A DNA stretch of 64,000 bases from Tetracentron sinense (taxonomy: Eukaryota; Streptophyta; Magnoliopsida; Trochodendrales; Trochodendraceae). The notes below the pieces were generated by a model that searched no databases, was not told the DNA's origin, and was given only the letters and a program-made list of their open reading frames with translations. Location: positions 19,296,826-19,360,825 of the forward strand of contig CM026559.1 in the NCBI GenBank assembly GCA_015143295.1, written 5' to 3'. Of this stretch, positions 44 to 62,606 are shown in pieces. The translations under genes and the position numbers were made by a program. Each line of letters starts with the position of its first letter. Positions within the stretch are counted from its first letter, which is position 1.

Positions 44-188
44 CTGAAATTTTAACTAGCGGAGTTAATCCATGTATCAACAACGTATACGTGTAGGTTT
101 ATATACATATAGAACATGCCGAGTACGTACACAAAAATATAGCATAACATAACAATCACGAATAAAGAAAATAACTCCAAACGCGTAC
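44..188 (-). other. Predicted spliced intron between gag and pol of Gy1 (145 bp)
   Basis: On the minus strand the donor is CAAG/GTACGCGT (exon ends at 189) and the acceptor is AATTTCAG/GAACC (exon resumes at 43). The interior is T-rich, as plant introns are. Removal joins a phase-1 codon (G + GA, Gly) and carries the gag frame into the protease segment without a stop. The same arrangement sits at the same codon in Gy2 and Gy4. Without splicing, translation continues through the intron and stops at 52-54. Boundaries are read from sequence and comparison; splicing is inferred, not shown. Confidence 0.65.
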
Positions 189-1437
189 CTTGCATCACAT
201 CATCAGATGCAAGTGCATCACCCTCTGTCAAAGCAAATACACGGCCCTGGTTCGCCTGGCGAGACTGAGGTGTAGACCGGGTAGTCTGAGATGACGCCTG
301 GTATGATCCTGCTGGGCGTGTCGGGGGCCTACTATCCTGAGACTGGCCTGGTAAATGCCGGCTAGGGCAATCCCTGATCATGTGGCCCTGGCGACCGCAA
401 TGATAACATCCACCAGATGCTCTTCGGCAATCTCCTGCCGGATGCCTTTTGCCGCATGAAGTGCAGACCTCATATGTGTAGGCTGGAGGGACCGGAGGTG
501 GTGTATACCTCGCTGCCTGAGGGGTAACTGGCCGTGGGGCCGGAAGAGCCTGAGGTCGAGGTGCCTGTGGCACGTACTGCCGGGGTGCTGGAGGCGCATA
601 AGTCGGCCTCATCTGTGGTGCTGGCCATGTATACTGATAAGGACCAGTCCGGGCCCGCCTCTCTGGAGGTGCTGAACTATTGGCTTGGCCTCTCGCCAAC
701 TCTCTCTTCTTAGACACCGCTTCGGAATTGGCCTCGACCAATAAGGCCTTGTCTACCACTTCAGGGTAGGTAGCGTGCCTGAAAATGGAAACCTTCTCCA
801 TAATAACATCCTTGAGCCCTTGCTCAAATCTTCTCGCCTTCATTGCCTCAGTAGCAACCATATGAGGCGCGAATCTCGACAATTCTGAGAACTTGGCCTC
901 ATAAGCGGCCACAGACATCGAACCTTGCTCAAGGTTGATGAATTCTCTCTCTTTCTTTTCCCGTGCACCGATCGGAAAATACTTCTTGTAAAAAGTATCT
1001 TTGAACTCCTCCCAAGTCCACGGTTGACCTTGCATGGTCAAGTCCCGTGTCCTCAATGCGGACAACCACCAATGGTGGGCTTCGCCCTCTAGCATAAAAA
1101 CTGCCCATGCCACTTTCTCTTCCTCTGTAGGAGAGAGCACCGCAAATATCTTCTCAACCTGGAGGATCCAAGCCTCCGCAGTAAGAGGGTCCACACTCCC
1201 GTGGAAGGATGGAGGCCTCAATCTCCTGAATGCCTCAACTCCAGCTGTACGATGTACTGGAGCTGCGGGCGGTGGAGTAGGTGCCGCTGATGCCGGTATA
1301 GTTTGCCTAGCCGCCAGGATGGCGAGTGTCTCAGCAATAGAGCCTAAGACCTGAGAGAGGTCCGGCTGCTCATCCTCATCCCGTGAAGAAGAGGAAGCTC
1401 TGGTATGTGGCCCACGACCCCGTGTGTTCCGTCTCAT
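52..1437 (-). CDS. gag: Gag polyprotein of Ty3/gypsy chromovirus Gy1
   Basis: Capsid/nucleocapsid protein of an LTR retrotransposon, forming the cytoplasmic particle that packages element RNA. The start ATG at 1437 (MRR...) matches Gy2 and is followed by a Pro/Ala-rich linker (about residues 45-65). The retrotransposon gag domain lies at about 85-195 (EAHHWW at 119-124, YFPIGARE, then the SMSVAAYEAKF segment). A Pro-rich stretch runs about 265-320, followed by two zinc knuckles: CTSCGKRHPAGDC (325-337) and CYHCGRQGHMIRDC (344-357). Exon 1 ends in codon 417. The remaining 44 residues are intron read-through, very hydrophobic (a run beginning LFSLFVIVMLCYIF). It is the only gag in the window without an internal stop, so Gy1 is probably the youngest element here. 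Confidence 0.9.
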   Translation of the reverse strand: MRRNTRGRGPHTRASSSSRDEDEQPDLSQVLGSIAETLAILAARQTIPASAAPTPPPAAPVHRTAGVEAFRRLRPPSFHGSVDPLTAEAWILQVEKIFAVLSPTEEEKVAWAVFMLEGEAHHWWLSALRTRDLTMQGQPWTWEEFKDTFYKKYFPIGAREKKEREFINLEQGSMSVAAYEAKFSELSRFAPHMVATEAMKARRFEQGLKDVIMEKVSIFRHATYPEVVDKALLVEANSEAVSKKRELARGQANSSAPPERRARTGPYQYTWPAPQMRPTYAPPAPRQYVPQAPRPQALPAPRPVTPQAARYTPPPVPPAYTYEVCTSCGKRHPAGDCRRASGGCYHCGRQGHMIRDCPSRHLPGQSQDSRPPTRPAGSYQASSQTTRSTPQSRQANQGRVFALTEGDALASDDVMQGTRLELFSLFVIVMLCYIFVYVLGMFYMYINLHVYVVDTWINSAS

Positions 1438-1776
1438 GACTAAAGTCCTGAGAATAATAACACCACATGAGTCTAACTTGAAACCACAGTTTATTTCAAT
1501 GTCATTTCACAATAATTCAATTGGGATTAGTTGTATAATACTAATATACATCACATCAAGTCATCAGAGTATTCATCACATTATACTTATACTTCAGTGT
1601 TCTAGCGTACCTAGGACCCGTACTTGGTTGAAACAACCATTTTGACTAAGACTAAAGTTTAGTCTTACACTTGGAACCAGACTCGCTCCCGACTCACTTC
1701 CTTCCTAACTTGTTTCCTAACATATGCTCTTGTCAAGCCGTGGTATAAGATTCTAAGTGACCCTAAAGACCTAAAG
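1438..1776 (-). other. Gy1 5' leader between primer site and gag
   Basis: About 340 bp of untranslated leader, moderately AT-rich. It resembles the Gy4 leader near gag (shared GTCCTGAGAA.. and GAGTCTAACTT.. words on the plus strand). No ORF of note was seen. Confidence 0.5.
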
Positions 1777-2100: not shown

Positions 2101-2220
2101 CTACTGATAACCCTCTACGGGAGGTTCCTCCAAAGGTTCCTCGACGTACTCCTCCTCCACCCAAGGGCTAGGAGCACAGACATCAAATGGAGCAGCAGCT
2201 CCCTCAGAACCTGCCGACAT
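2101..2220 (-). CDS. Conserved LTR micro-ORF, Gy1 copy (39 aa)
   Basis: ATG at 2220, stop TAG at 2103-2101. The product is a small acidic peptide with core APFDVCAPSPWVEEEY, then alternating VEEP/LEEP acidic blocks, and a G-Y-Q end. The same reading frame occurs at the matching LTR position in sB, sD, sE, Gy2 (no ATG), Gy3, the 42-44 kb fragment and Gy4, with many third-position changes but a conserved core. The ATG lies 10 nt after a stem-loop. I know of no family or function; no transmembrane or signal segment is visible. Conservation between families suggests it was, or is, translated. Confidence 0.5.
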   Translation of the reverse strand: MSAGSEGAAAPFDVCAPSPWVEEEYVEEPLEEPPVEGYQ

Positions 2221-2230
2221 AAGAAGTACG

Positions 2231-2251
2231 GCTGAGCATGGAATACTCAGC
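2231..2251 (-). promoter_or_regulatory. Conserved LTR stem-loop
   Basis: GCTGAG-CATGGAATA-CTCAGC, 6-bp arms, immediately upstream of the micro-ORF start on the minus strand. Near-identical copies occur in sB, sD, Gy2, sE and the 42-44 kb fragment, with weakened arms in Gy4. The role is unknown; an RNA element in the leader is one possibility. Confidence 0.55.
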
Positions 2252-2518
2252 AGGTACAAAATACTAACCAATAGTCATAGCAAAACCATAGCAGTATAGG
2301 AAGCAGGAAGCATTTCACATATATAAAGCAGGAAACAATTCAAGCATATAAAGCAGGAATAATTCATATCATGACAATAAAGTAAAGGAGTATATAATCA
2401 TGCTTGAATTCATAAAAGCCGATAAAACCCTTGAAAACACCGTGCACTTGACTTGACTGAAAATACCATTTCCTTGCTTGAAAACTTGTCATGTTTGTCT
2501 TATCTTATCGTATCATGC

Positions 2519-2880: not shown

Positions 2881-3790
2881 GAAAATGCATGATTTGTCTT
2901 GTCCTTGCCAAAAGCGAGGTAAAACATATCGTACGATATGCCCCACCTCTAAATCCCATTCTTGAAAACCTCGGTAATTCATGTCATGTATGCGTGCTCG
3001 TGAGGTCGTGTGCATACTTGCATTTGGAATTAAATATGGCATTTGAGTAATTCATAACACATAACATCAATGATTTGGGCAATTTAATATTGATATCATT
3101 TAGGGAAAGCGAACAATCACACTATCATAACCCTAGCAATTTCCATAAACCTTAAACATGCATTTTCTTAATTTATCATTCATTTTATTCACCTTGGCAT
3201 TTCATCAAACATGGTACATTCATTATTTATTAACCCTACAACATGCTTTTCTAGGTGGGTTATACTCACATCACACTTGTATGTTTATTATTAGTACAAT
3301 GCCCTTCCCCATTCATTCATTACATCATCCACACGGCATCCATTCGCCAACATCCATCTCCATTTACCATACATACCACCCATCTCATAATATAGATATA
3401 TATATATGAAGGAAAACAAGAAGGAATAAGGAAATGAGAGGCTATAACTAGGAGGGTAGTAAAAAGCACCGACCTCGAAGAGATGAGGAAGAGACCCCTC
3501 TTCCAAACGACCGTGAGTTGCTGCCCTAGCTTGGAACACGAGCTCCACCCGAGCTTGAGCCGAGATCTTGAAGGAAAACGTGCTTGAGGATGATCTAGGG
3601 TCTCAAACCCCTTTGATTCCTCTTCAAAATGGAAACCCTAGATTTAGGAACCCTTTCTCCTCTCTTCTAATCTCCCAAATCTTCTAAGGGTTGAGAATGA
3701 GCCCTAAAGGTTCGGGCAATCCTATATAAGAAAGGGTATAACACCCGAATGCCGAAAATGCCCTTAGTGAAAATTCTGTAAAACGTGAGA

Positions 3791-3974
3791 ACCGAGCGAT
3801 CGGTGTTAATGACCGATCGATCGGTTGCCTACCGATCGATCGGTTTCATAACCGAGCGATCGGTTGAAATTTCACTCTCTGGAAAATTTCCCCATAGTAA
3901 AATCTCGACCAGTCGATAGCCTCCGAGCGATCGGTTTTGGACCGATCGATCGCTCCATGGACCGAGCGATCGGT
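3791..3974. promoter_or_regulatory. Phased palindrome array in the Gy1 U3
   Basis: Seven 14-bp units of type ACCGAKCGATCGGT start at 3791, 3812, 3831 and 3851 and at 3922, 3941 and 3961, so spacing within a group is 19-21 bp. Linkers between units differ in sequence but not in length. The groups flank GAAAATTTCC-containing sequence and lie about 60-250 bp upstream of the TATA-like box in LTR sense, where an LTR enhancer is expected. Confidence 0.75.
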
Positions 3975-5674: not shown

Positions 5675-6479
5675 CCCCCGCGTTTTGCAGAATTTCATTA
5701 AGGGCTTTTTCGGTATTTGGGTGTTATACCCTTTACCTATAAGGCTCGCCCGAGTCTTGAGGGTTCATTCACAACACTTAGAGTATTTTGAGAGATAGAG
5801 AAAGAGGAGAAGGAGATTCTAAACCTAGGGTTTGCTTTTGAGAAGAAATCAAAGGGTTTGAAGACCCTAGATCACTTCAAGCTCGTGTCTCTTCAAGTTC
5901 AAGGTTCAAGCTCGTGAGGACTACGCTCTCCAAGCTAGGGCAGCAACTCACCCACGTTTTTGCAAGGGGTTTCTTTCCTCAATTGTAAAGGTCGGTACCA
6001 TATGCTACCCTCTTAGTTATAGTTTTCTCTTTTCTTTTCGATTCTTTATTTTCCCCCATCTATAACTATAATATGAGTTGTAATGTGTAAATGGTGTGAA
6101 TGGAGATGGATATTGGCGATGGGATGCCGTGTGTATGGTTGTGATGAATGAAATGGGGAGGGCATTGTATCCATAATGAATATACATGTGTGATGTGAGC
6201 ATCAACCCACCTAGAAAAGCATGATGTAGGTTTAATAAATAATGAACACACTCCATGTTTGATGAAATGCCAAAGTGAATAAAATGAGTTGAAATTAAGA
6301 AATGCATGCTTAATTAATTATGGAAATTGCTAGGGCCTACGGTAGTGTGCTTTCTTATTTCCTCTAAATTGCATGAATATTGACTTGTTCAAATTATTGA
6401 TGTTATATGTATTGTATATTACCCAATTGTCATATTTAAATTCAAATGCAAGTATGTACACGATTCCACGAGCACGACA

Positions 6480-6655
6480 TGTAGTTTATTTTCCAAGCAA
6501 GCTAGATACATGGCATGGCAAGCATGAGCATTTAGGAAGAAGGGTCTCCCTTCCCTCACAAGTAGTTTATTTTCCAAGCAAGCAAGATACATGGCATGGC
6601 AAGCATGATCATTTAGGAAGAAGGGTCTCCCTTTCCTCACAAGTAGCATTAACAC
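6480..6655. repeat. LTR minisatellite in sB (about 80-bp units)
   Basis: Two units with AGGAAGAAGGGTCTCCCTTC and AGTTTATTTTCCAAGCAAGC blocks and CATGGCAAGCATGA spacers. It is the same repeat as in Gy3 and Gy1. Confidence 0.8.
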
Positions 6656-6953: not shown

Positions 6954-7073
6954 ATGTCGGCAGGTGATAGCGGAGTGGCTAATCCTTTTGATATCTGTGC
7001 TCCGAGCTCATGGGTAGAGGAGGAGTACGTTGAGGAGCCTGTGGAGGAACCTCAGGTCGATGGCTACTATTAG
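6954..7073 (+). CDS. Conserved LTR micro-ORF, sB copy (39 aa)
   Basis: ATG at 6954, TAG at 7071-7073. It is the same length as the Gy1 and Gy3 copies. The core is NPFDICAPSSWVEEEY followed by VEEP blocks, ending D-G-Y-Y. The frame is intact although this solo LTR has no coding region left. It sits 10 nt after the stem-loop CGCTGAGTATTCCATACTTAGC. Confidence 0.5.
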   Translation: MSAGDSGVANPFDICAPSSWVEEEYVEEPVEEPQVDGYY

Positions 7074-25060: not shown

Positions 25061-25216
25061 TCAGTAGTCACCCCCATGGGGCCAATGGTCTAAGTCCTTT
25101 GCCTCAGCCTGAGGCTCAACTACCGAGGCCTCATATGGTTCTTCCTCACCGTAGTCTTCCTCAACCCAAGGACCCGGGGCACAAATGTCAAAAGGGACTC
25201 GTGTACCTGCCAACAT
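25061..25216 (-). CDS. Conserved LTR micro-ORF, sD copy (51 aa)
   Basis: ATG at 25216, TGA at 25063-25061. The core is VPFDICAPGPWVEEDY, then an acidic middle and a longer tail (KDLDHWPHGGDY) like Gy4 and sE. The family-specific extension suggests the short 39-aa forms may derive from a longer ancestor. Confidence 0.5.
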   Translation of the reverse strand: MLAGTRVPFDICAPGPWVEEDYGEEEPYEASVVEPQAEAKDLDHWPHGGDY

Positions 25217-25770: not shown

Positions 25771-26773
25771 TTCCTCCATATACGTGCGTGCTCGTGCATA
25801 GTTATTTGTGAAACATGATGACATATACGATTTGAGGAGTAGCATATAGCATTTCAATTCTTATCACAATCATATGAGAATTTAGACAAGCATATAGAAA
25901 TATGGATCACAATCACCATTTTAGGGAAACTACATGAATCATGCTTTTCAAACTTTCATTTAATTCAAAATATTCTCATTCATGCACTTTACCAAGCAAG
26001 TGGTGTTTCACATTTTCTTTAGTCCTTTCAAACTCATAATTTCTTTCACAAGCATTTCATCAAGCATCACATATGCATTCATTATGTGTATAATACCCTC
26101 CCACCATTTTCCATCATTCAACACAACACAACATGGCATCCCATCGCCTCAATCCCCTCATCCATCCATGCATTCCACCACTCCTTCATATTATCGTGTT
26201 TATATTTTAGGGAATTAGCATATTTCAACACAAGGGAGAAATGGGGAAGATTCAATACACCATATTCATAAGAAAATCTAGGTTATTACCAAGGTAGCTA
26301 GGAGGGTGTACTAAGCTTAAAAGGAAGGGGAAGAAAACCCTTGAGAATGCCGAGGAGAATGCTGCCCAAGCTTGGAGAAGGAACCCCACCGTGCTTGAGC
26401 TTGGGCTTGAGGAATCCAAGCTTTTGGTGTCGCAACCCAAAATACCCCCTAGGAGTTAGGGATACATTGACTCGTGACCGCCGTATCATACCTCCAGTAT
26501 AATACATAAGGCACACGTGGAGACCTGTCAGAAACAAAAACATATCTAGCGGAAGCAATAAAGAATGCACAGCGGAATAAAATACTAAACATAGCTGAAG
26601 CAAAGCGATACTCCTATAACTCAGTGCAAGTTGAACCAACAAAAGTATATACATGTGAGAAACCCAAAAGTGGAGTGGACAAACCCCACACTCACATCAC
26701 AAAATAACATCTTAAAGTTCTAAGTCTGCCGATCAACAAAATTCGAAGTCTCGACACCTATCTATAGGACCAT

Positions 26774-26875
26774 CGTCCTAATAATGATCCATGGAAGGCT
26801 CCGGGTCGAAGTACTCTTCCTCCAACCATGGTTCCGTGCCACATATGTCGAACGGAGCCCGAGCACCTGCCGATG
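26774..26875 (-). pseudogene. LTR micro-ORF without ATG, Gy2 3' LTR copy
   Basis: The same frame as the other copies (APFDICGTEPWLEEEY, then PEPSMDHY and a TAG), but the ATG is replaced by TCA, so no start is visible. Conserved codons persist across the frame. It may be a decayed copy, or translation may enter another way, for example after splicing at the preceding CAG. Confidence 0.4.
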
Positions 26876-28293: not shown

Positions 28294-28719
28294 CTACTCG
28301 AACAAGTGAGGGTACTTCTCCTTCACATCGGCTTCTAGTTCCCATGTAGCCTCTTCCTTAGAATGATGCTGCCATCTCACAGGGACTAAAGGGATAGTCT
28401 TGGTACGCAATACTTGTTCGTGACGATCCAAAATCTGAACTGGTTGCTCAACCAACGTGAGATCCTCTCTAATCTCCATAGGATCAAGAGCATTGATGTG
28501 AGACGGATCCGAAATGTATTTCCTAAGCATAGAGATGTGAAATACATTATGGATAGCTGCCATGTGAGGCAGTAGTACTACCTTGTAAGCAACCTCACCA
28601 ACCCTCGTGATGATCTCAAATGGTCCTATGTACCTAGGACTGAGCTTTCCCTTCTTTTCGAACCGCATGATTCCCTGACTTGGTGAAATCTTGACCCGAT
28701 CTCCAACTCGGAATTCCAA
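28294..28719 (-). pseudogene. pol: Gy2 pol C-terminus with chromodomain-like tail
   Basis: Last 141 residues of pol. It holds the SH3-like integrase C-terminal part (FRVGDRVKISPS, KLSPRYIGPFEI, HNVFHISMLRKYISDPSH), then a chromodomain-type end (VRWQHHSKEEATWELEADV). In chromoviruses this tail is thought to direct integration to heterochromatin. The segment is open to its stop; upstream pol is broken. Confidence 0.9.
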
Positions 28720-31551: not shown

Positions 31552-31694
31552 CTGAGAATTTTAATCACCCAAGTTATAACATAAACCATACACACAAACT
31601 ATACATATAGATACAAGCATCGCAAAACATCACATAGGATACATATATACCAAACATCATGGCAACATTAAAACTTAGACAAGATCAAACTTAC
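31552..31694 (-). other. Predicted gag/pol intron of Gy2 (143 bp, shifted donor)
   Basis: The acceptor is TTCTCAG/GTTCATTAC (exon at 31551). At the position used in Gy1 and Gy4 the dinucleotide is GC (CAAG/GCACGC), but 6 nt further in is an excellent donor CGC/GTAAGTTT. Using it keeps the frame and adds two residues. The internal sequence is AT-rich. Confidence 0.55.
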
Positions 31695-32187
31695 GCGTGC
31701 CTTGCACAACATCATCAGATGCCTGTACGTCTCTATTAGTCATGGCAAAGACCCTGCCTTGGTTAGCCTGACAAGGCTGCTGGGTGGGCGACACGGATCT
31801 AAAGGCCTACGATGAAGACCCCTGCAATGAAGTCTGCCGGCCTGGAGGCTGAACTCCCTGTGGCCCAGTCTGTGATTGCTTACATGGGCAATCTCGAATC
31901 ATATGGCCCATCTCGTCACAGTGGAAGCATCCACCTGACATTCTTCGGCAATCCCCTGTCTTGTGCCGACGACCACAGATGGGCATTCCTCAAAAGTCTG
32001 TGATGTGGAGGAAGCCGGAGGCATCACCCTCATAGCTTGTGATGTCATAGGGCGTGATGCCTGAGGCACAAAAGAAGGTCTCTGAGCCGGCATCGGCTGG
32101 GAGAACTGGTACGGTGCAGTCCTAGTCCTCTTCTCGGACGATGAACCACTAGACTGACCCCGAGACATGCTTTTTCTGAGGCCACTG
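31695..32187 (-). pseudogene. gag: Gy2 gag, C-terminal part
   Basis: Linker [21 protein letters not shown]..., then the double zinc-knuckle region (CFHCDEMGHMIRDC readable at about 31892-31935), with a frameshift between the linker and the first knuckle and stops downstream. The protein is separated from its N-terminal part (37129-37801) by the inserted Gy3. The left junction of Gy3 is about 32188-32203. Confidence 0.85.
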
Positions 32188-34898: not shown

Positions 34899-35110
34899 TG
34901 TAGAGCCCCAGACTTTTTCATGCTTAATGCATGACACTTTCATAGCTAATTTTCCTTTAATGTAGTACAATTAATAAATAAGGAAGAAATTGAAAATTCC
35001 AAAATGCCAAAAATGTTCCTTTTCCAAGTACGAACCCAATGCAAGTTGAATTGTTAAAATCCGACGAACGAGTCAAAAGATATGGCCAAAACAGTTTGGA
35101 CCTGCAGACC

Positions 35111-35256
35111 ACCGATCGCTCGGTCCATTGTAGCGATCGATCGGTCCACAACCGATCGATCAGAGGCTATCGACTGGTGCACTTTTTTGTATGGAGAAAT
35201 TTTCCAGAGAGCATGTTTTTGACTGGTCGCTCGGTCGAGAACACCGATTGCTTGGT
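35111..35256. promoter_or_regulatory. Phased palindrome array in the Gy3 LTR
   Basis: Units start at 35111, 35132 and 35151 (spacing 21, 19) and at 35222 and 35243 (spacing 21). Between them lies TATGGAGAAATTTTCCAGAGAG. Confidence 0.75.
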
Positions 35257-36213
35257 CCCCCGCGTTTTGCAGAAATTTCCGTAAGGCTGTTTTCATCTTT
35301 TGGGCGTTTCACTCATACCTTAAGATGTTTGCCCGAGCCTTTGGGGCTCATTTACCACACTTAGAATATATTAGAGAGGAAGAGAGAAGAGAAGGAGATT
35401 TTTAAACCTAGAGTTTGATTTTTGAGAAGAAATCAAAGGGTTTGTGAACCCTAGATCACTTCAAGCTCATTTTTCTTCAAAGTTCTCGGCTCAAGCTCGT
35501 GAGGAGCTCTTTCCCCAAGCTAGGGCAGCAACTCACGTACGTTTTGCAAGGGGTTTCTTCCCTCAAATTGTCAAGGTCGGTACCTTTTGCTACCCTCCTA
35601 GTGATAGTTCTTTATTTTTCTTCCCTTATTCCTATTATCCTTTATTTTTCCTTCATCTATATATGTGTTATGAGATGGGTTGTGTGAATGGTGAATGGAG
35701 ATGGATGTTGGCGAATGGATGCCGTGTGGATGATGTGATGAATGAAATGGGGAAGATCATTGCACCAATAATAAACATACAAGCATGTTGTGAATATGAA
35801 CCCACCTAGAAAAGCATGTGATAGGCTTAACAAATAATGTACTCACCATGTTTGATGAAATGCCCAGGTGAAAGAAATGAATTGTAAATTAAGGAAATGT
35901 ATGCTTAATTAATTGCAGAAATTGCTAGGACCTATGATAGTGTGCCTTCTTGTTTTCCCTAAATTAAATGAATATTGAATTGCTCAAATGATTGATGTTC
36001 TATGTATTGTTAACTCTCCAAATGTCATATTTAAATTTAAATGCAAGTATGTACACGCTTCCACGAGCACGACATGCATGACATGAATTTACCGAGGTTT
36101 TCAAGAATGAGAATTAGAAGTGGGACATATCCTACGATATGTGTTACCTCGCTTTTGGCAAGAACAAGACTACCATGCACAAAGAAGGGTTTCCCTTCCG
36201 TCGCAAGTGCATC

Positions 36214-36440
36214 TAGGAAGAAGGGTCTCCCTTCCCTCACAAGTAGTTTATTTTCCAAGCAAGCATGAGACATGACATGGGAAGCATGAGCATCTAGGAA
36301 GAAGGGTCTCCCTTCCCTCACAAGTAGTTTATTTTCCAAGCAAGCATGAGACATGACATGGCAAGCATGAGCATCTAGGAAGAAGGGTCTCCCTTCCCTC
36401 ACAAGTAGCATGAACATATTTATTTTCCAAGCAAGCATGA
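36214..36440. repeat. LTR minisatellite in Gy3 (82-bp units)
   Basis: Three units starting at about 36214, 36296 and 36378. Each has the dyad GAAGGGTCTCCCTTC and CCAAGCAAGCATGAGACATG. Confidence 0.9.
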
Positions 36441-36696: not shown

Positions 36697-36816
36697 ATGT
36701 CGGCAGGTGATAGCGGAGCGGCTGCTCCTTTTGATGTTTGTGCTTCTGGCCCATGGGTGGAGGAGGAGTACGTCGAGGAACCTGTAGAGGAACCTCCGGT
36801 AGTGGGTTATTATTAG
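36697..36816 (+). CDS. Conserved LTR micro-ORF, Gy3 copy (39 aa)
   Basis: ATG at 36697, TAG at 36814-36816. The core is APFDVCASGPWVEEEY followed by VEEP repeats, ending V-G-Y-Y. The length equals the Gy1 and sB copies. The upstream sequence CTTACTTCTT-ATGTCGGCAG is kept although the stem-loop is deleted. Confidence 0.5.
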   Translation: MSAGDSGAAAPFDVCASGPWVEEEYVEEPVEEPPVVGYY

Positions 36817-37128
36817 AGGTGGTAGATTCTGAGTGAATAACTGTGGGTGAGTTGAGAGCGATATATTCATGTATTTTGGCGGGCCTGTCCGCACTTTCTT
36901 TTGTGTATTTTCTTTTTGTATAAACTTGGAGCATGTATATGTATATACACATAGAGGTTTTCGGTTAAGTCTTCCACTGTGCTTTATAGTTATGTTTCCG
37001 CTATTATTGTCCTCTATTGTGTATGCTCCAGGTCTGTTGCAGGTTGTTTTGGTCAAGCAAGTCATGCAAGTCATGATGAGTCGTCCAAGATTCACTCTAA
37101 CTCCTAGGGTGGGTTTTGGATCGCGACA

Positions 37129-37801: not shown

Positions 37802-38214
37802 GATATCAAATCCTAAGATCCATTGGCAAAACATGAGTCTAACATGGATACCAACCTCACACATCCTATAGCAGTTCAATATACATGAATTGCTATTACG
37901 CATATTGTATACGTCGAGGTATACACATAATCAGATAAGTATAACTTAGAGTGTCCTAGCATGACTAAGTTGGGCATCTACCCTTTCTGGAATAAAACTC
38001 AGGACATAGTCTAAATTAGCGCCTAGACTAAGATCCTAGACTGACCGAAGGGCTCGCTTGATACCGGTTATGTCGTGGTAACAACCCTAAGACAACAAGT
38101 CCATCTGAGTTCTAAGTTCAACTCGGAGAACTACTTCCGCTTACTAGAGACAACTTTCTAGAGTAAGATAACTCTAGTTCCAACTTGAAGGACACTAGCC
38201 TACGTGACCTAATG
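37802..38214 (-). other. Gy2 5' leader
   Basis: About 410 bp of untranslated sequence between primer site and gag. It shares GAGTCTAAC.. with the Gy1 and Gy4 leaders. Nothing else seen. Confidence 0.5.
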
Positions 38215-38235: not shown

Positions 38236-40112
38236 TGTCGCGACCCAAAATACCCCCTAGGAGTTAGGGATACATTGACTTGTGACCGCCGTATCATACC
38301 TCCAGTAGAATACATAAGGCACACATGGAGACCTGTCAGAAACACAAACATATCTAGCGGAAGCGATAAAGAATGCACAGTGGGATAAAATACTAAACAT
38401 AGCGGAAGCAAAGCGATACTCCTATAACTCAGTTCAAGTATGAACCAACAAAAGTATATACATGTGAGAAACCCAAAAGTGGACTGGACAAACCCCACAC
38501 TCGCATCACAAAATAACATCTTAAAGTTCTAAGTCTGCCGATCAACAAAAGTCGAAGTCTCGACACCTATCTATAGGACCATCGTCCTGATAATGATCCA
38601 TGGAAGGCTCCGGGCTGAAGTACTCTTCCTCCAACCATGGTTCCGTGCCACATATGTCGAATGGAGCCCGAGCACCTGCCGATGATAACAAATATCGGCT
38701 GAGCGTGGAATACTCAGTGTATACAAACTAATAACAATAAAGCATTAAGCATAGAGCATACGAATCATGGAGAATAAAATCCGTAAAAACATGTAAGAGC
38801 GTGGAAACCTCAAAATAACATGTGAGATGAGGTTCGAAACCAAAACCAAAACTGCAACCGTGTGAGTCATGCGATAATCATAGCCTTGTGAGTTCTTGTG
38901 AGTTCATGGAGTTACATAGAGTCATTATGATCCGTAGAGACATGGAGATACCATAGAGCACAACATAGAGCATATCCTTAGAGATCTTAGAGTGTTACAT
39001 TTATGATCCGTAGAGCTTGTGAGACAATCTAAAAGCTTATCATAGAGTTCCTTGTGAGCATAGTATGATCCGTAGAGCTTGTGAAACGATCTTAGAGAAA
39101 TCATAGAGTGACTTAGAATCGTTCCTTATTAGTCTTTTTGTGAAAAACACCTTTTCGTACATTGAGAAATTCATGGAAAACATCGATTCATGCGAGACAT
39201 GCGAGCATATGAACATATGAGGGTAATAATCATAAATAAGCATCAAAATCCCTTAGAGGTATTTCTCCAACACTTAGAGTGCACCATAACGATAACTTAC
39301 ATCCAACATAGTATAACATCCTTCCATACCATAGCAAATCAAGGTATATGTAGCATGGAGTAAGAAGAATCATATTGAACAACTAGTAGGATTGCAAGAT
39401 TGGTAGTAGAGTGTATCTACCATGGTAAAATGAATGTCTTTGATTCCCACAAGCTGGAACAAGCAAGAACCATGAGTTCTTGGTTGAGAATCACCAAAAA
39501 CAATGGAAGAACTTAATCTTCCACATGCTTGAACAATCACCAAGCTCCTCTCCTTCTTCTCTCTCTCAAAATCTCTCAAATTAGGGCACAGAGGGTTTGT
39601 GAATCCCTAAGGCACGAGCTCAGCCTATTTATAGGCAAGGGATGGTGGTTAAAGTCTTAAACACCCTTAATGAAGAAAATCTACATATAACCGATCGATC
39701 GATGGTACATACCGAGCGATCGGTGGCTTACCGGTCGATTCGGTGGTTTCAACCGAGAGATCGGTTGAAAACACCCTCTCTGGAAAATTTCCCCATACAA
39801 AAAAGTTAACCAGTCGATAGCCTTCGATCGATCAGTAGTTGACCGGTCGATCGGAGGATGGCACCGAGCGATCGGTGATCCCCTGTTTTGCTGTAAAACC
39901 ATGTTCTGATTACTTGAAACTTCTCCAACATCATTCTACCACTCTTTTTTGTTGAATACATGCTCCTTAGTAATATCTAGGCCCATTGAAACATGCATGC
40001 CATAAATCCAAACTCGTATATTAACATAAAGCCCATTAGTGCACAAAACCACACTTGAGCACTATTCACACACTATTCATCACTTAGTGCAATAAAGATT
40101 CGGGGCTCTACA
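38236..40112 (-). mobile_element. 5' LTR of chromovirus Gy2 (1877 bp)
   Basis: TGTCGCGACCC at 38236 to GGGGCTCTACA at 40112, with TTTGG at 40113-40117 matching 26423-26427. It retains the TATA box (GCCTATAAATAGGC on the minus strand, about 39622-39635) that the 3' LTR lacks. Palindromes are at 39690-39890 and the tandem repeat at 38930-39125. The micro-ORF frame at about 38690-38540 lacks ATG but stays open longer than in the 3' LTR. Confidence 0.93.
39690..39890. promoter_or_regulatory. Phased palindrome array in the Gy2 5' LTR
   Basis: Units start at 39690, 39711, 39730 and 39752 (spacing 21, 19, 22, the last with a one-base insertion). A second group lies at about 39820-39880 after a GGAAAATTTCC spacer. 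Confidence 0.72.
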
Positions 40113-42008: not shown

Positions 42009-43118
42009 GGTCCAAAACCAATCGATCGGAGGCTATCGACTGGTTGAAAATTTTGTATGGGGAAATTTTCCAGAGAGCTCGTTTTTGACCGGGAGCTTGG
42101 TCAATTTACCAATTGCTCGGTAGGCAACCGATCGATCGGTCATAACCACCGATCGCTCGGTCTTCGCGTTTTTGCAGAAATTTCATTAAGGGTGTTTTCA
42201 TCTTTTGGGCGGTTCACTCATGCCTTAAAGGCTTTGCCCGAGCGTTTGGGGGTTCATTAACCCTAAGAAGAACATTTGAGAGATAGAGAGAGAAGAGAAG
42301 GGGATTTCTAACCTAGGGTTTACTTTTGAGAAGAAATCAAAGGGTTTGTGAATTCTAGATCACCTCAAGCTTGGATTGCTTCAAGATTTCGGTTCAAGCT
42401 CGTGAGGACAACACTCTCCAAGATAGGGCAGCATCTCATGGACGTTTTGGAAGGGGATTCTTTCCCTTATTTATCAAGGTCGGTACCTCTTGCTACCCTC
42501 CTAGTTATAGCTTTTCTTTCTTCCCTTATTCTTGTATTCTTTGTTTTCTTCCATCTATAAATGTATTATGAGTTGAAATGGTGAATGGTGTGAATGGAGA
42601 GGGGAGTTGGCGATTGGATGCCGTGTGAAATGATGTGATGAATGAAATGGGGAGGGCATTGTATCCATAATAAACATACATGTGTGATGTGAACATCAAC
42701 CCACCTAGAAAAGCATGATATAGGTTTAATAAATAATGAACACACCCCAAGTTTGATGAAATGCCAAGGTGAATATAAATGGGTCGTAAATTAAGAAATT
42801 GCATGCTTAAATGCTTATGGAATTTGCTAGGGCTCATGATAGTGTGATTTCTCGTTTCCCTAAATTACATGAATATTGAATTGCTCAAATGATTGATGTT
42901 CTATGTATTGTTAACTCTCCAAATGTCATATTTAAATTTAATTGCAAGTATGCACACGCGTCCACGAGCACGACATGCATGACATGAATTTACCGAGGTT
43001 TTCAAGAACGAGAATTAGAGGTGGGACATATCCTACGATATGTTTTACCTCGCTTTTGGCAAGAACAAGACTATCATGCATAAAGAAGGGTTTCCCTTCC
43101 CTCGCAAGTGCATTTAGG

Positions 43119-43450
43119 AAGAAGGGTCTCCCTTCCCTCACAAGTAGTTTACTTTTTGAACAAGCATGATACATGACATGGCATGACATGAGCATTCTAG
43201 GAAGAAGGGTCTCCCTTCCCTCACAAGTAGTTTATTTTCCGAGCAAGATACATGGCATGACAAGCATGAACATTTTGGAAGAAGAGTCTCCCTTCCCTCA
43301 CAAGTAGTTTATTTTCCAAGCAAGATACATGGCATGGCAAGCATGAACATTTAGGAAGAAGGGTCTCCCTTCCCTCACAAGTATTTTATTTTCCTTGCAA
43401 GATACATGGCATGGCAAGCATGAACATTTAGGAAGAAGGGTTTCCCTTCC
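43119..43450. repeat. LTR minisatellite in the 42-44 kb fragment
   Basis: About five units of roughly 70-85 bp with AGGAAGAAGGGTCTCCCTTC and TTTATTTTCC.. blocks. It is the longest array of this type in the window. Confidence 0.88.
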
Positions 43451-43751
43451 CTCATAAGTAGCTTACTTTCCAAGCAAGCCTGACATGGCATGACACGCAT
43501 GATACGACAAGACAAGAAAAACATGACAAGTTTTCAAGCACGGAAAGGGTATTTTCAGTCAAGTCAAGTGCACAAGGTTTCAAGGGTTTTATCTGCTTTT
43601 ACGAAATGCAAGCATGATTATAAACTGCTTTACTTTCCTGTTATGATTTGAATTGTTTCCTGCTTTATATATGTGTAACATTGTTGCTGTACTATGACTG
43701 TTGGTTAGTATTTGGTACACGTTGAGTATTCCATGCTCAGCTGTACTTCTT

Positions 43752-43871
43752 ATGTCGACAGGTGATAGCAGAGTGGTTGCTCCTTTTGATGTCTGTGCTC
43801 CTGGCTCATGGGTGGAGGAGGAGTACGTTGAGGAGCCTGTGGAGGATCCTCAGGGCGAGGGCCACTATTAG
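43752..43871 (+). CDS. Conserved LTR micro-ORF, 42-44 kb fragment copy (39 aa)
   Basis: ATG at 43752, TAG at 43869-43871. The core is APFDVCAPGSWVEEEY followed by VEEP/VEDP and an H-Y end. It is open despite truncation of the LTR. Confidence 0.5.
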   Translation: MSTGDSRVVAPFDVCAPGSWVEEEYVEEPVEDPQGEGHY

Positions 43872-45113: not shown

Positions 45114-45254
45114 TCAACAGTAGTCGAGGTACGGCCACACGTCTCGGTCTCGGTCCGCCTGAGACTGTAGTGGAATAGACGGCTCTCTCTCCTCTATGTA
45201 CTCTTCCTCGACCCAAGGCTCCGGATCAAGGGCTCCCTCAGTACCTGCGGACAT
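45114..45254 (-). CDS. Conserved LTR micro-ORF, sE copy (46 aa)
   Basis: ATG at 45254, TGA at 45116-45114. The PFD(V/I)C part is shortened (GALDPEPWVEEEYIEE), but the WVEEEY core and a tail DVWPYLDYC are present. The tail resembles sD and the Gy2 5' LTR. Confidence 0.45.
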   Translation of the reverse strand: MSAGTEGALDPEPWVEEEYIEEREPSIPLQSQADRDRDVWPYLDYC

Positions 45255-50971: not shown

Positions 50972-51091
50972 TCAGTGGTCTAAGTCCCTTGCCTCCTCCT
51001 GAGGCCCCATATATGGCTCCTCGCCATAATCTTCCTCGATCCAAGGCCCTTGATCACAGATGTCAAAGGGAGCCCGTGTACCTGTCGACAT
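50972..51091 (-). CDS. Conserved LTR micro-ORF, Gy4 3' LTR copy (39 aa)
   Basis: ATG at 51091, TGA at 50974-50972. The core is APFDICDQGPWIEEDY, followed by GEEPY..., ending RDLDH where the 5' LTR copy reads on for 8 more residues. Confidence 0.48.
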   Translation of the reverse strand: MSTGTRAPFDICDQGPWIEEDYGEEPYMGPQEEARDLDH

Positions 51092-56083: not shown

Positions 56084-56223
56084 CTGTGTGATTAACTAAT
56101 TCACATCAATAGATTTCATGCAAGAACATACATATCCTGTATAAGTAGCATATTCTATACACAAGCAACACCTCATGTAATAGTATGCATAAACAATTTT
56201 AAAACTTGAGTATCCTAACATAC
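56084..56223 (-). other. Predicted gag/pol intron of Gy4 (140 bp)
   Basis: Donor CAAG/GTATGTTA and acceptor AATCACACAG/GCACTTTA on the minus strand. Joining gives an intact Gly codon and continues into Thr-Leu-Leu-Val-Asn, the conserved protease lead-in. It has the best donor of the three elements and sits at the same codon as in Gy1. Confidence 0.68.
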
Positions 56224-57460
56224 CTTGCACGACATCATCAGATGCACGTGCATCCCGTTCCGATAAGGCAAAGACCCGGCCCTGGTTTGCCTTGCGAGGC
56301 GGTGGAGTGCACTGTGTGGGTCGTGAGGGCCTAGATTCAGAAACCTGTGAGGATCCATGCTGGGAAGTCTATCGCACTAGGGCCCTGCTCCCCTAAGGCT
56401 GAACTCGTTACTGTCGGCGAGGTCAATCTCTAATCATGTGGCCTTGCTCGCCACAATGGAAACACCCGCCCGATGCTTTCCGACACTCTCCAGTCAGGTG
56501 TCTTCGGCCACAATAATTGCACTCCTCAAAAGATGAAGAGGATGCAAGCGGCACATGTCTAGTGCCCTGAGAAAAAGTGGGGCGAGGTGCCTGTGAAGTA
56601 GTCGGGCGTGGCACTAGTGGTGCAAAAGAAGGCCTCTGTGTCGATGTAAGCCTAGGAGCTGGGTATGGGGACATCCTGGTCCTCTTCTTCGGTGACCCCA
56701 CTTTACTAGATTGGCCTCGAGTCATCTCTCTCCTCTTGAAGAATTCTTCGGAATTCTTCTCAGCAAGCTTCGCCTTGCTCACATTCTCTCCCCAGGTGCT
56801 CACCTGAAACATCGAGACTTGGTCTCGAATGGAGTCCTTTAATCCCCTTTCAAACTTTCTGACTCGCATATTTTCCAAAGCGATCAGCTGTGGTGCAAAT
56901 CGAGACAACTCCACGAATGTGGCCTCATAATCTACCACCGACATATCTCCCTGTACTAAGGAGAGAAACTCTACCTCCTTCTGTTCCTTGACAGCCATGG
57001 GGAGATACTTTTTGTAGAAGACATCCAAAAATTCACCCCATGACCATGGCTCCCCAGCTCTAGAGGCATCTCTCTGCCTCAGTGTAGCCCTCCACCAATG
57101 TTCGGCCGCACCCTTGATCACGAAGGTGGCCCAGTCTACTCACTGCTCATCCGTACAGTGGAGTGCTCTGAATATCTTCTCCATCTGCATGATCCATGCC
57201 TCTGCGACCATAGGATCAGTGGTGCCGATGAAGGTAGGAGGATGCAGTCTCCTAAACGCCTCAAGTCCTACAGTGCAATGGACAGGAGTGGGTGTAGGCA
57301 TAGGAGTAGCGGCAGTAACAGGCCTGGCTGCTAGCATCGCCAAGGTCTCTACTATAGATGCAAAGGCCTGAGCAAAATTGGGTTGTGCATCACCCGATGG
57401 AGGAGGGGATGATCCACTACTCCTGGTATGGTGTCCACGACCCCGTAAGCTACGTCTCAC
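56224..57460 (-). pseudogene. gag: Gy4 gag (broken)
   Basis: N-terminus at 57460 with the start codon changed to GTG, then RRSLRGRGHHTRSSGSS, Pro-rich linker, LEAFRRLHPPTF, WIMQMEKIFRALHCTDEQ and a TGA (for Arg) at about 57137. It continues DWATFVIKGAAEHWWRATL, SLVQGDMSVVDYEATFVELSRFAPQL, two knuckles CNYCGRRHLTGEC and CFHCGEQGHMIRD, where the final Cys is a TGA. More stops lie before the donor at 56224. Confidence 0.9.
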
Positions 57461-57764
57461 GACTGTGTCCTGAGAAAAATAGCAAAATTTGAGTCTAACT
57501 TTGAAACCAACTTCATTTTGATCATAACTTCAAGCTCAATCTTCATTTATAAGGCACATAATAGTAATACATCGAGGTATACATTGCAACAGATAAGCAT
57601 ATAATTTGTGGTCCTAGCACAGGATACTAAGTTCGGTTGGATTCCAACCGGTTATTGACTAAAACTAAAGATTAGTCTATACTTGGAATACGACTCTTTC
57701 CTAAATCCTAATGCCTTGTGTTGATCATGGTATCGAGTACTAAATGACTCTAGGGACTTTAATG
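57461..57764 (-). other. Gy4 5' leader
   Basis: About 300 bp of untranslated sequence, similar in word content to the Gy1 leader. Nothing else seen. Confidence 0.5.
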
Positions 57765-57781: not shown

Positions 57782-58032
57782 CCTCTGTCGCGCTCCAAAA
57801 TACCCCCTAGGAGTTAAGGGATACTTTAGGTGTGACAATACTTAACCTGGCAACCAATCCTGTAATATAAACAAGGCAAGACATAACGAAATCATAATAC
57901 AGTGCGGAAGCGTAATCCAAAAATTTCTTTTTCTATTTATAATCTGTATTCCAAATTTGTACAATACAAAATCCCAAAATAAGAGTAGACAGACCTACTC
58001 ATCAAAATAAAAAATGTAATCACCTCTCTCTC

Positions 58033-58176
58033 TCAATAATCACCCTGAATGGGCCAGTGGTCTAAGTCCCTTGCCTCCTCCTGAGGCCCCACATATGGCT
58101 CCTCCTCGCCATAATCTTCCTCGATCCAAGGCCCTTGATCACAGATGTCAAAGGGAGCCCGTGTACCTCCCGACAT
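58033..58176 (-). CDS. Conserved LTR micro-ORF, Gy4 5' LTR copy (47 aa)
   Basis: ATG at 58176, TAA or TAG stop ending at 58033. The core is APFDICDQGPWIEEDY and the tail DHWPIQGDY resembles sD (DHWPHGGDY). The conserved CAG before GT is GAG here, so a splice acceptor at that spot would be lost, while the ORF remains. Confidence 0.5.
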   Translation of the reverse strand: MSGGTRAPFDICDQGPWIEEDYGEEEPYVGPQEEARDLDHWPIQGDY

Positions 58177-58900: not shown

Positions 58901-59868
58901 TTGTGAGGTTATTCTTGTGAGCTTATGATGCTTATAGATAAATGCAAGATCTTAGACTTATGAAGTTCTTATGAGTTCTTGAAGTAATCGATCTTCCAAA
59001 CACCAACCCAAAGTTTGGCTTTGTCAAATGCTTATGCTTCTTTCTTGTGAATTTCCTTTGAAAAAAACCTTGTTCATAATTCTTAAAATGCATGCTTATG
59101 GATAAACTCGATCATATGAAACTTATCATGCATGGAGTGCTTGTGAGCCTTATCATATACATATGGAAGGCCTTAACAATTCATATAAAACATGTTCTCA
59201 TTATGGTATACTTGAAAATTTTGAGAAACATAGCATATTTCATTCATTGCATTACATCACCAAGATCATGTCATTTTCATCACATCATAATTAAAATCAT
59301 TCTTTATTTAGAGATAATAATGTTTGCTCACGCATATAGCCATATTAATCATTTTATTGAAAAACCCCCAAGTCTCAAATCCCTATTCAATCATTTGCTC
59401 ATTTTCCATTTTTACCCCGAATCATATCTTTACATTTGCATCCTAGCAAGCTAAATCACATATTTGATCATTCATTTAATCTTAGTATAATAACAAAGCT
59501 AAATAGTGGTCTTACTTACATCTCATTCAAAATCATACTTTCACTACTGCAAGATAGCAAAGCTAGCTAAAAGTTTTACTTACCTTGCAAGGATCAAATC
59601 TTAGTGTGGAAGGATGATCTAACACGATCTTGAGCTTGGAAATGGAGATCCACACTCAAGGAAGAAGGTTGAAGGTTATGGAAGCTTTGAGAAGTGATGA
59701 TTTTATCTCCTCCTTGGTCTCAAACAGAATCCCCCTTTGGAAACCTAGGTTTCCTTCTTTTTATTTGAAAAAGTCCTTCTCTAAGTGTTAGGAACCTTGG
59801 ACCCCCAAAAAATTGGGTATATATAGTGTTAGGTTAGTGAATAAACCCAAAAAAAACATTTCTAGACA

Positions 59869-62132: not shown

Positions 62133-62606
62133 CTGAGGATACTTTTCTCGCACTTCGGCTTCTCGTTCCCATGTAGCCTCCTCCGTTGAATGGTGTTGCC
62201 ATCTTACCAAGACCTAGGGAATGGTCTTGTTGCGCAAGACTTGATCTCACCTATCCAAGATCTGCACCGTTTGCTCAACTAGGGTAAGATCCTCTCGGAT
62301 TTCCACAAGATCAAGCTCTATGACATGGGAAGGGTCTGAGATGTACTTCCGGAGCATGGAGATGTGAAACACATTGTGGACTGCCGCCATATGAGCAGGC
62401 AAGGCAACACTATAAGCCACCTCACCGACTCTAGTAATGATCTCGAACGGGCCCACATATCTCGGACTGAGTTTGCCTATCTTTCCGAATCTCATAACAC
62501 CCTTGGTTGGTGAAACTCGAACAAATACAAAATCACCAACTCGAAACTCAAGGTCTCTCATTCGGTTGTCAGCGTAGCTCTTCTGTCTATCTTGTACGGT
62601 CTTCAA
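62133..62606 (-). pseudogene. pol: Gy5 pol, integrase C-terminus and chromodomain tail
   Basis: Open from 62606 (DRQKSYADNRMRDLEFRVGD, KLSPRYVGPFEIITRVGEV, HNVFHISMLRKYISDPSH) to a stop at 62247. The chromodomain end VRWQHHSTEEATWERE continues to about 62133 after two stops. Confidence 0.88.

Follow-up and report, generated by a model that had tools for sequence, protein, structure and literature searches.

The question raised by this locus is what a short open reading frame, repeated inside the long terminal repeats (LTRs) of several retrotransposon families, encodes and how it would come to be translated. We analyzed a stretch of 64,000 nucleotides from Tetracentron sinense (assembly GCA_015143295.1, contig CM026559.1, positions 19,296,826 to 19,360,825 of the forward strand), referred to here as the window. 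A preliminary description had reported the frame in eight LTRs, each time opened by an ATG, and had named a translated LTR peptide and a leader ORF controlling Gag translation among its possible roles. Based on the sequence, we hold it to be probable, though by no means certain, that the conserved frame serves as an alternative last coding exon, which would provide Gag, and not Gag-Pol, with a conserved acidic tail.

Elements and LTR copies in the window

All eight frames of the preliminary description were recovered at their coordinates and translate as had been described, and its remark that the first half of the peptide core is missing from a shortened copy, there called 'sE', fits copy C (45114-45254), which lacks PFDIC. 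Searches with tblastn added two frame copies on the minus strand (26.7-26.9 kb and 38.5-38.7 kb), presumably those that had been named 'Gy2', and a remnant near 47.5-47.6 kb. The copies were assigned to families according to their similarity, namely A (frames at 2101, 6954, 36697, and 43752), B (25061), C (45114), D (50972 and 58033), and G (26.7 and 38.6 kb). Their coordinates are collected in Table 1 together with those of the other features discussed here.

The LTRs bearing the frame end in GGG(T/G)CGCGACA or close variants, and their start, TGTAG..CCCC, was located in six of the ten copies (A1, A3, C, D1, G1, and G2). A primer-binding site (PBS), TGGTATCAGAGC, lies 3' of three copies (A1, D2, and G2), and LTRs D1 and D2 are 92.7% alike, with pieces of pol between them. 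The last ~35 nt of the LTRs (TAACTCCTAGGGGGTATTTTGGG..CGACA; 57786-57820 on the minus strand and equivalents) are among their most conserved parts besides the exon and the hairpin upstream of it. The U3 part of several families holds arrays of palindromic ACCGATCGATCGGT or ACCGAGCGATCGGT-like units (e.g., 35110-35270 on the plus strand and 3790-3866).

By their Pfam domains (Retrotrans_gag, RVP_2, RVT_1, RT_RNaseH, Integrase_H2C2, and rve) the elements are Ty3/gypsy retrotransposons, the order gag, protease, RT-RNaseH, integrase being assembled from pieces of several elements. The chromodomain PF00385 reached 22.0 bits at 28294-28719, under the cut-off of 25.1, and was unlisted for 62247-62606. 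These chromovirus-like elements may belong to the Tekay (Del) clade.

Table 1. Coordinates of the LTR exon copies and of the predicted leader, gag, intron-like, and hairpin features in the window. Ranks are those of the splice-like site among all AG or GT dinucleotides compared.
Feature	Position	Strand	Remarks
LTR exon copy A1, in 5' LTR, followed by PBS and gag	2101..2210	-	acceptor rank 2/54
LTR exon copy A2	6964..7073	+	acceptor rank 1/61
LTR exon copy A3, first base past acceptor to stop; acidic tail GDSGAAAPFDVCASGPWVEEEYVEEPVEEPPVVGYY	36707..36816	+	acceptor-like GGCAG|GT, rank 1/62 AGs
LTR exon copy A4	43762..43871	+	acceptor rank 2/58
LTR exon copy B	25061..25206	-	acceptor rank 1/59
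LTR exon copy C, without PFDIC	45114..45244	-	acceptor rank 1/61
LTR exon copy D1, 3' LTR of D element; early stop, shorter than D2	50972..51081	-	acceptor rank 2/63
LTR exon copy D2, 5' LTR of D element	58033..58166	-	acceptor reads GAG, rank 12/64
LTR exon copy G1, 3' LTR of G1 element; internal stop at 26778; ATG absent at common position	26733..26866	-	acceptor rank 2/39
LTR exon copy G2, 5' LTR, with PBS and gag start next to it; ATG absent at common position	38542..38675	-	acceptor rank 2/38
Hairpin 1, copy A1, just upstream of acceptor, GTAC..GCTGAG...CTCAGC..GTAC	2226..2257	-	CTCAG of 3' arm a possible branch point
Hairpin 2, copy D2, past the stop, GAGTAG...CTACTC	57983..58000	-	pairs covary between families
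Likely leader exon 1, A3 LTR, ATG-free to CAAG|GT; start set by eye	35356..35575	+	0 ATG in 220 nt (11.3 expected if as dense as in the sequence that follows); donor rank 3/67
Leader donor CAAG|GTAAGT, D2 LTR; first intron base 59583 (D1: 52460)	59578..59587	-	rank 1/78 (D2) and 1/67 (D1)
Acceptor-like TTATTCTCAG|, ending 10 nt 5' of gag ATG (A1), GTTAGACTCA upstream	1448..1457	-	rank 1/33
gag ORF, A1 element, running on into the intron-like stretch	52..1437	-	Retrotrans_gag, zf-CCHC (Pfam)
Intron-like gag/protease stretch, A1; donor GCAAG|GTACGC, acceptor TTTCAG|GAACCCTA, phase 1	44..188	-	donor 1/70 GTs, acceptor 1/6 AGs
Intron-like gag/protease stretch, D; donor GCAAG|GTATGT, acceptor CACAG|GCACTTTA, phase 1	56084..56223	-	donor 1/74 GTs, acceptor 2/21 AGs
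Intron-like gag/protease stretch, G1; donor GCAAG|GCACGC, acceptor TTCTCAG|GTTCATTA, phase 1	31552..31700	-	acceptor 1/14 AGs

Selection on the LTR peptide

The view that the LTRs encode a selected peptide is supported by substitution ratios, shuffling, frame-specific conservation, and an excess of third-position changes in the core. Ratios of dN/dS, computed with the NG86 method on a protein-guided alignment of copies A1-A4, B, C, and D2, were 0.09-0.32 in 12 of the 15 between-family pairs, which indicates selection at the protein level; the remaining three pairs are saturated at synonymous sites, so that no ratio could be computed. When the same substitutions were placed by shuffling, as many residues were kept in 0-8 of 2000 trials (12 between-family pairs). 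Within the ungapped 16-codon core, codon positions one, two, and three differ 13, 14, and 54 times, respectively, over 96 codon pairs (A3, B, D2, and G2; copy C was left out, half of its core being missing).

Conservation is also unequal among frames and flanks. The mean z of the proposed frame is 2.81, over 11 pairs on the DNA alignment (ten between families and one within family A), and those of the other five frames are 0.66, -0.09, 0.36, -0.59, and 1.73, the last belonging to an antisense frame that peaks at 3.8 in the pair B-D2. The flanks have no standout frame, with means of -0.11 to 0.55 upstream and 0.47 to 1.36 downstream. These results bear on the possibility that no protein is made and that RNA or DNA elements, such as hairpins and the R region, are what is conserved, the open frame being incidental. 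Conserved hairpins on both flanks, the downstream one with covarying pairs, would suit such an explanation, but the third positions of the core are about four times as variable as the first and second, and only one frame shows the signal. The frame z and the core codon-position counts largely refute this explanation, and we regard it as very improbable.

Within family A, three of the six pairs cannot be distinguished from shuffles, the pair A2-A4 has a dN/dS of 1.51, and the frames of D1 and D2 are separated by four non-synonymous changes, no synonymous ones, and two stops. This is expected if selection acts between active founders while inserted copies decay.

Start of the frame

The claim that an ATG opens the frame is probably wrong with respect to the start. 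An ATG at the common position is found in eight of the ten copies, comprising all of families A-D, where the start string reads ATGTCGGCAGGT or close to it. Both copies of family G have TTATCATCGGCAGGT at this position and no ATG, and only one of the two has another in-frame ATG, 21 nt farther upstream. The start codon, whose conservation serves as a test for conserved-peptide upstream ORFs, is accordingly absent from a whole family, i.e., from two of the ten copies. At the supposed codons three and four, the A, G, G, and T of an AG|GT are all invariant in the ten copies, with the A and the T occupying third codon positions. In a hand tally against the majority, codons two and three carry four non-synonymous changes and one synonymous change, never touching the AG; with five changes only, this is a weak indication, taken alone, that these codons are free of protein constraint.

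The invariant AG|GT belongs to an acceptor-like site located 3' of the ATG and inside the frame; in LTR-encoded accessory proteins of the mouse mammary tumor virus (MMTV) Sag type, the acceptor precedes an open frame of the LTR. Scored with approximate plant site frequencies, which were used for all splice-site ranks given here, it is the best or second-best among 38-64 AGs in nine of the ten copies. Base composition changes at the same place: from the acceptor to the stop, GC is 0.51-0.57 and T 0.19-0.28 in all ten copies, against 0.29-0.40 and 0.36-0.45, respectively, in the flanks. Plant exons and introns differ in composition likewise (PMC3735527), and the GC-rich and T-poor tail between T-rich flanks is exon-like.

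If the frame did start at the ATG, it would encode a free micropeptide of the LTR, or act as a leader ORF before gag, and be read from short transcripts or from a spliced leader. Such a start would agree with the ATG present in most copies, with the selected frame extending from the next codons to a stop, with the hairpin upstream, and with a TATA-like run 52-67 nt upstream in A3, although no comparable run was noticed by eye in families B, C, D, and G. It is at odds with the loss of the ATG in family G, with the changes in codons two and three beside an unchanging AG, and with ATG contexts that look weak by the usual rules. The ATGs that occur in the hairpin loop of families A and D are, where present, out of frame. 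Moreover, the 735-1407 nt from the likely leader donor to the frame contain 36-67 ATGs (seven copies; the frame's own ATG excluded), all of which would precede it in a transcript that begins in the LTR's 5' third. Taken together, the lost ATG, the invariant AG|GT, the changing codons, and the many preceding ATGs make the ATG a doubtful start, and on the same evidence a leader ORF controlling Gag translation is not favored. We consider an ATG start unlikely, while granting it some weight.

Two related candidates were set aside. An acceptor upstream of hairpin 1 would preserve the ATG, but the nearest AGs are not aligned by eye across all families. A leader uORF with ribosome shunting, the first idea suggested by the flanking hairpins, was given up as the main explanation in view of the upstream ATGs, the invariant AG|GT, and the ATG that family G lacks.

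Leader and transcription start

A TATA-like box, e.g., CCTATAAATAGGC in G2 and CTATATATACC in D2, is located in the 5' third of the LTRs with a purine-rich stretch 3' of it, and these boxes would place the start of transcription in this third. A likely leader exon 1 extends from this region to a CAAG|GT-type donor. With its ends picked by eye and six copies counted in full (181-220 nt), this exon contains no ATG in A1, A2, A3, and D2, one in A4, and three in G2; the corresponding stretch of D1 has one, counted over 124 nt only. Besides the top-ranking donors of family D (Table 1), the leader donor ranks second to fourth of 66-77 GTs in family A, fourth of 50 in G2, and first of 46 in G1. The acceptor-like arrangement that precedes gag in A1 also ends at 57470 in D2 (rank 1/30) and at 37813 in G2 (rank 17/40), and the upstream GTTAGACTCA is common to the three families. 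A CAAG|GT leader donor together with an acceptor-like site just before the gag start makes it likely that a leader is spliced onto gag, with every splice site, and the start of transcription, being predicted. The likely leader intron of the A-family LTRs contains 77-85 bp tandem repeats in variable copy number (36209-36408, 43111-43502, 2513-2773, and 6477-6646).

The leader also bears on the partner of the LTR acceptor. Instead of gag, the exon could have another coding exon as its upstream partner, for example one of pol or of a host gene, or its acceptor could mainly serve the leader donor of the same 5' LTR. The first-ranked leader donor of family D and the position of the 5' LTR exon copy downstream of a leader donor both speak for this arrangement. 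The likely leader exon, however, is devoid of ATGs in four of the six copies, with the single ATG of A4 and the three of G2 as exceptions, and in family D a stop closes the leader frame four codons upstream of the junction, so that there the leader cannot supply the start for the selected frame. We judge a partner other than gag to be quite improbable.

Interruption of gag-pol and the proposed terminal exon

The window holds three gag ends, belonging to the A1, D, and G1 elements. Each reads ...TCTGATGATGTNNTGCAAG and then gives way to a stretch that has little sequence in common among the three, has stops in the continuing frame, and closes with an acceptor-like CAG. These intron-like stretches are 145 (A1), 140 (D), and 149 nt (G1) long, leaving remainders of 1, 2, and 2 on division by three, and their T content is 0.43, 0.39, and 0.45, respectively, compared with 0.21-0.23 in the preceding 150 nt and 0.25-0.33 in the sequence that follows (43 nt only in A1). 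Their removal, with the cuts set by eye at the conserved protease start, restores Q-G-(T/S)-L-L-V-N-E in all three elements, with a codon split after its first base (phase 1). A donor-like site is present at the same place in the three gag ends, with GT in two of them and GC in G1, where a GTAAGT (rank 3/31) lies six bases past the GC donor. Copy D2 is decayed, in that the aligned gag start is not ATG and the downstream gag frame is broken (57140-57470 on the minus strand).

The LTR acceptor has the phase of the gag donor, so a CAA-G|GT junction would read into the selected LTR frame. The predicted product runs ...VVQ-G-TRAPFDIC...WIEEDY...stop, the joins being V-V-Q-G-T-R-A-P-F-D-I-C in D and V-V-Q-G-A-R-A-P-F-D-I-C in G1. 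These are the only two cases in which the window includes both a gag end and a 3' LTR that apparently belong to one element; splicing would lead from 56223 to 51081 in D and from 31700 to 26866 in G1, thereby skipping ~5 kb with all of pol. A phase match is expected by chance in one of three cases, and the agreement lends weak support to a gag-LTR junction.

We propose that the transcript, starting in the 5' third of the LTR, would have gag separated from protease by a short phase-1 intron. Use of the gag donor with the near acceptor would yield Gag-Pol, while joining this donor to the 3' LTR acceptor (YAG|GT) would skip all of pol and yield Gag with the LTR-encoded acidic tail. This tail comprises 36-48 residues with a net charge of -9 to -11 in the eight uninterrupted copies, and the Gag of the predicted product carries a zinc knuckle (A1). 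Past the tail would come the stop, then a small hairpin, and then a sequence of the TGTAYAA or TGTATAT type as a possible component of a polyadenylation signal. All ten copies have one or more matches to this loose pattern within 200 nt. The tailed Gag may be present in particles, and splicing to the tail may set the ratio of Gag to Gag-Pol.

The proposal draws on the sum of the acceptor site, the selected frame, the missing ATG, the exon-like composition, and the interrupted gag-protease frame, features that, like the other splice-like sites and the matching phase, are seen in the sequence itself. Several observations count against it: two decaying copies deviate at the splice-like sites, D2 with GAG at the acceptor and G1 with GC at the gag donor, the ATG is still present in eight copies, and the acceptor before gag ranks low in G2. 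A donor within the frame, by which the frame would be fused to gag, was considered separately and rejected, no GT being common to all families by eye and the stop being retained. A second acceptor-like site, CAG|G, occurs near the LTR end at an aligned place in nine of the ten copies (TAG|A in C) and outscores the proposed acceptor in four of the eight copies compared. No role was found for this site (e.g., 37040-37043 on the plus strand and 57850-57870 on the minus strand), though it is among the best-scoring AGs.

Hairpins flanking the exon

The 3' arm of hairpin 1 contains CTCA or CTTA, a possible branch point located ~23 nt upstream of the acceptor. Folding z values are -6.6 in A1, -3.4 in B, -3.8 in C, and -4.0 in G1, and unconvincing in D1 (-1.2) and D2 (-0.3); copy A3 has lost the hairpin by deletion, and no compensatory changes or covariation were found for it in the alignment of the copies. 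If it masks the putative branch point, hairpin 1 would weaken the distant acceptor and thereby let some of the RNA remain unspliced.

Hairpin 2 varies in sequence yet remains paired. Five of its six pairs have changed on both sides, and its covariation of 0.385 against 0.170 in shuffled alignments was reached in none of 500 shuffles, while further pair types are not raised (6 vs 6.2). The underlying alignment was cut by hand and includes ten copies of five families, so that independent events are few; the rows of G1 and G2 are shifted against the others and count in part as unpaired. The folding energy of hairpin 2 in single copies is unremarkable (z -0.5 to -2.7 in six), and no Rfam match was obtained at the gathering threshold.

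The most complete form of the proposal holds that, in plant chromoviruses of this group, one donor and two alternative phase-1 acceptors would give either Gag-Pol or Gag with a p6-like acidic tail, the LTR exon being activated by splicing and the hairpins tuning the choice. From the sequence features described, we would give this full model an even chance.

Search for relatives

With an alignment of the peptide as query, no outside homologue was found in the protein database (seven candidates, none scoring). For the third origin named in the preliminary description, a captured host piece, these searches speak neither for nor against. The gag query returned seven distant matches among 8000 candidates scored, and inspection by eye found no acidic tail in the gag-matching proteins; a query with the gag C-terminus gave 15 candidates, none of them a relative. 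Viral contigs searched with a 20-base pattern, the peptide, gag, and protease-RT yielded no confirmed relative. A Gag-like protein, P0006 (source ena), ends in DTDITSKDPQVGQGGLQDAPGAV after RVFALTPTKLEEDVLLVE without running on into protease, and is possibly another Gag with an alternative tail.

Comparison with known systems

In HIV-1, p6 is the C-terminal part that is found in Gag only, past the zinc knuckle of the nucleocapsid, with other sequence at this place in Gag-Pol. HIV-1 p6 is produced by way of frameshifting, whereas the tail proposed here would be attained by splicing, and the analogy is one of position only.

Gag-only RNAs made by splicing have been reported for several elements. 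In Drosophila copia, splicing takes out nearly all of pol and leaves a Gag RNA, and in barley BARE1 and Arabidopsis EVD (shGAG) a Gag-only RNA arises from splicing and an early stop, through removal of a 104-nt intron in BARE1 and of the protease domain in EVD, both of which shift the frame (PMC3735527, PMC12786077, PMC7730604, in the text accessible). The likeness consists in splicing at or past the gag end that provides RNA for Gag and not for Pol; these are, however, Ty1/copia elements, and the accessible text describes neither a conserved tail nor an LTR exon. In triticale, the one Ty3/gypsy Gag RNA found there was intronless, as far as the available text goes, which runs against a general rule for Ty3/gypsy elements.

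Among the Ty3/gypsy elements, CRR, a CRM-clade chromovirus of rice, is reported to have spliced transcripts (PMC3735527). Ogre, of the Tat lineage, has an intron between parts of the polyprotein that is spliced in some RNAs and required for the whole polyprotein (PMC6317226, accessible text), but this intron is situated between protease and RT, whereas here it would lie between gag and protease of a chromovirus-like element. Coding sequence within the 3' LTR is known from the group A chromoviruses of the CRM clade, where, according to PMC3059260, a coding region that specifies the CR motif reaches from the interior of the element across into the 3' LTR; the frame described here, in contrast, is deep in the LTR and behind an acceptor. 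A splice acceptor leading to an open frame in the 3' LTR is also a feature of MMTV Sag (PMC3026287, accessible portion), which is a separate accessory protein and not a Gag tail as proposed here. In the open-access literature, as far as its text was accessible, we found no description of an LTR exon tailing Gag, or of a spliced Gag-only RNA combined with an LTR-encoded protein. Taken singly, both spliced Gag-only RNAs and proteins encoded in LTRs are known.

Implications

Plant Ty3/gypsy elements are usually drawn with a single gag-pol frame, and the source of their Gag excess is a standing question. If the proposal is true, a directly testable answer to it would be a gag donor with two alternative acceptors of matching phase, of which one lies in the LTR. 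Long LTRs, solo LTRs included, would then carry a ready-made coding terminal exon with its own acceptor, and this exon, possibly together with a polyadenylation signal, would be open to uptake by host transcripts.
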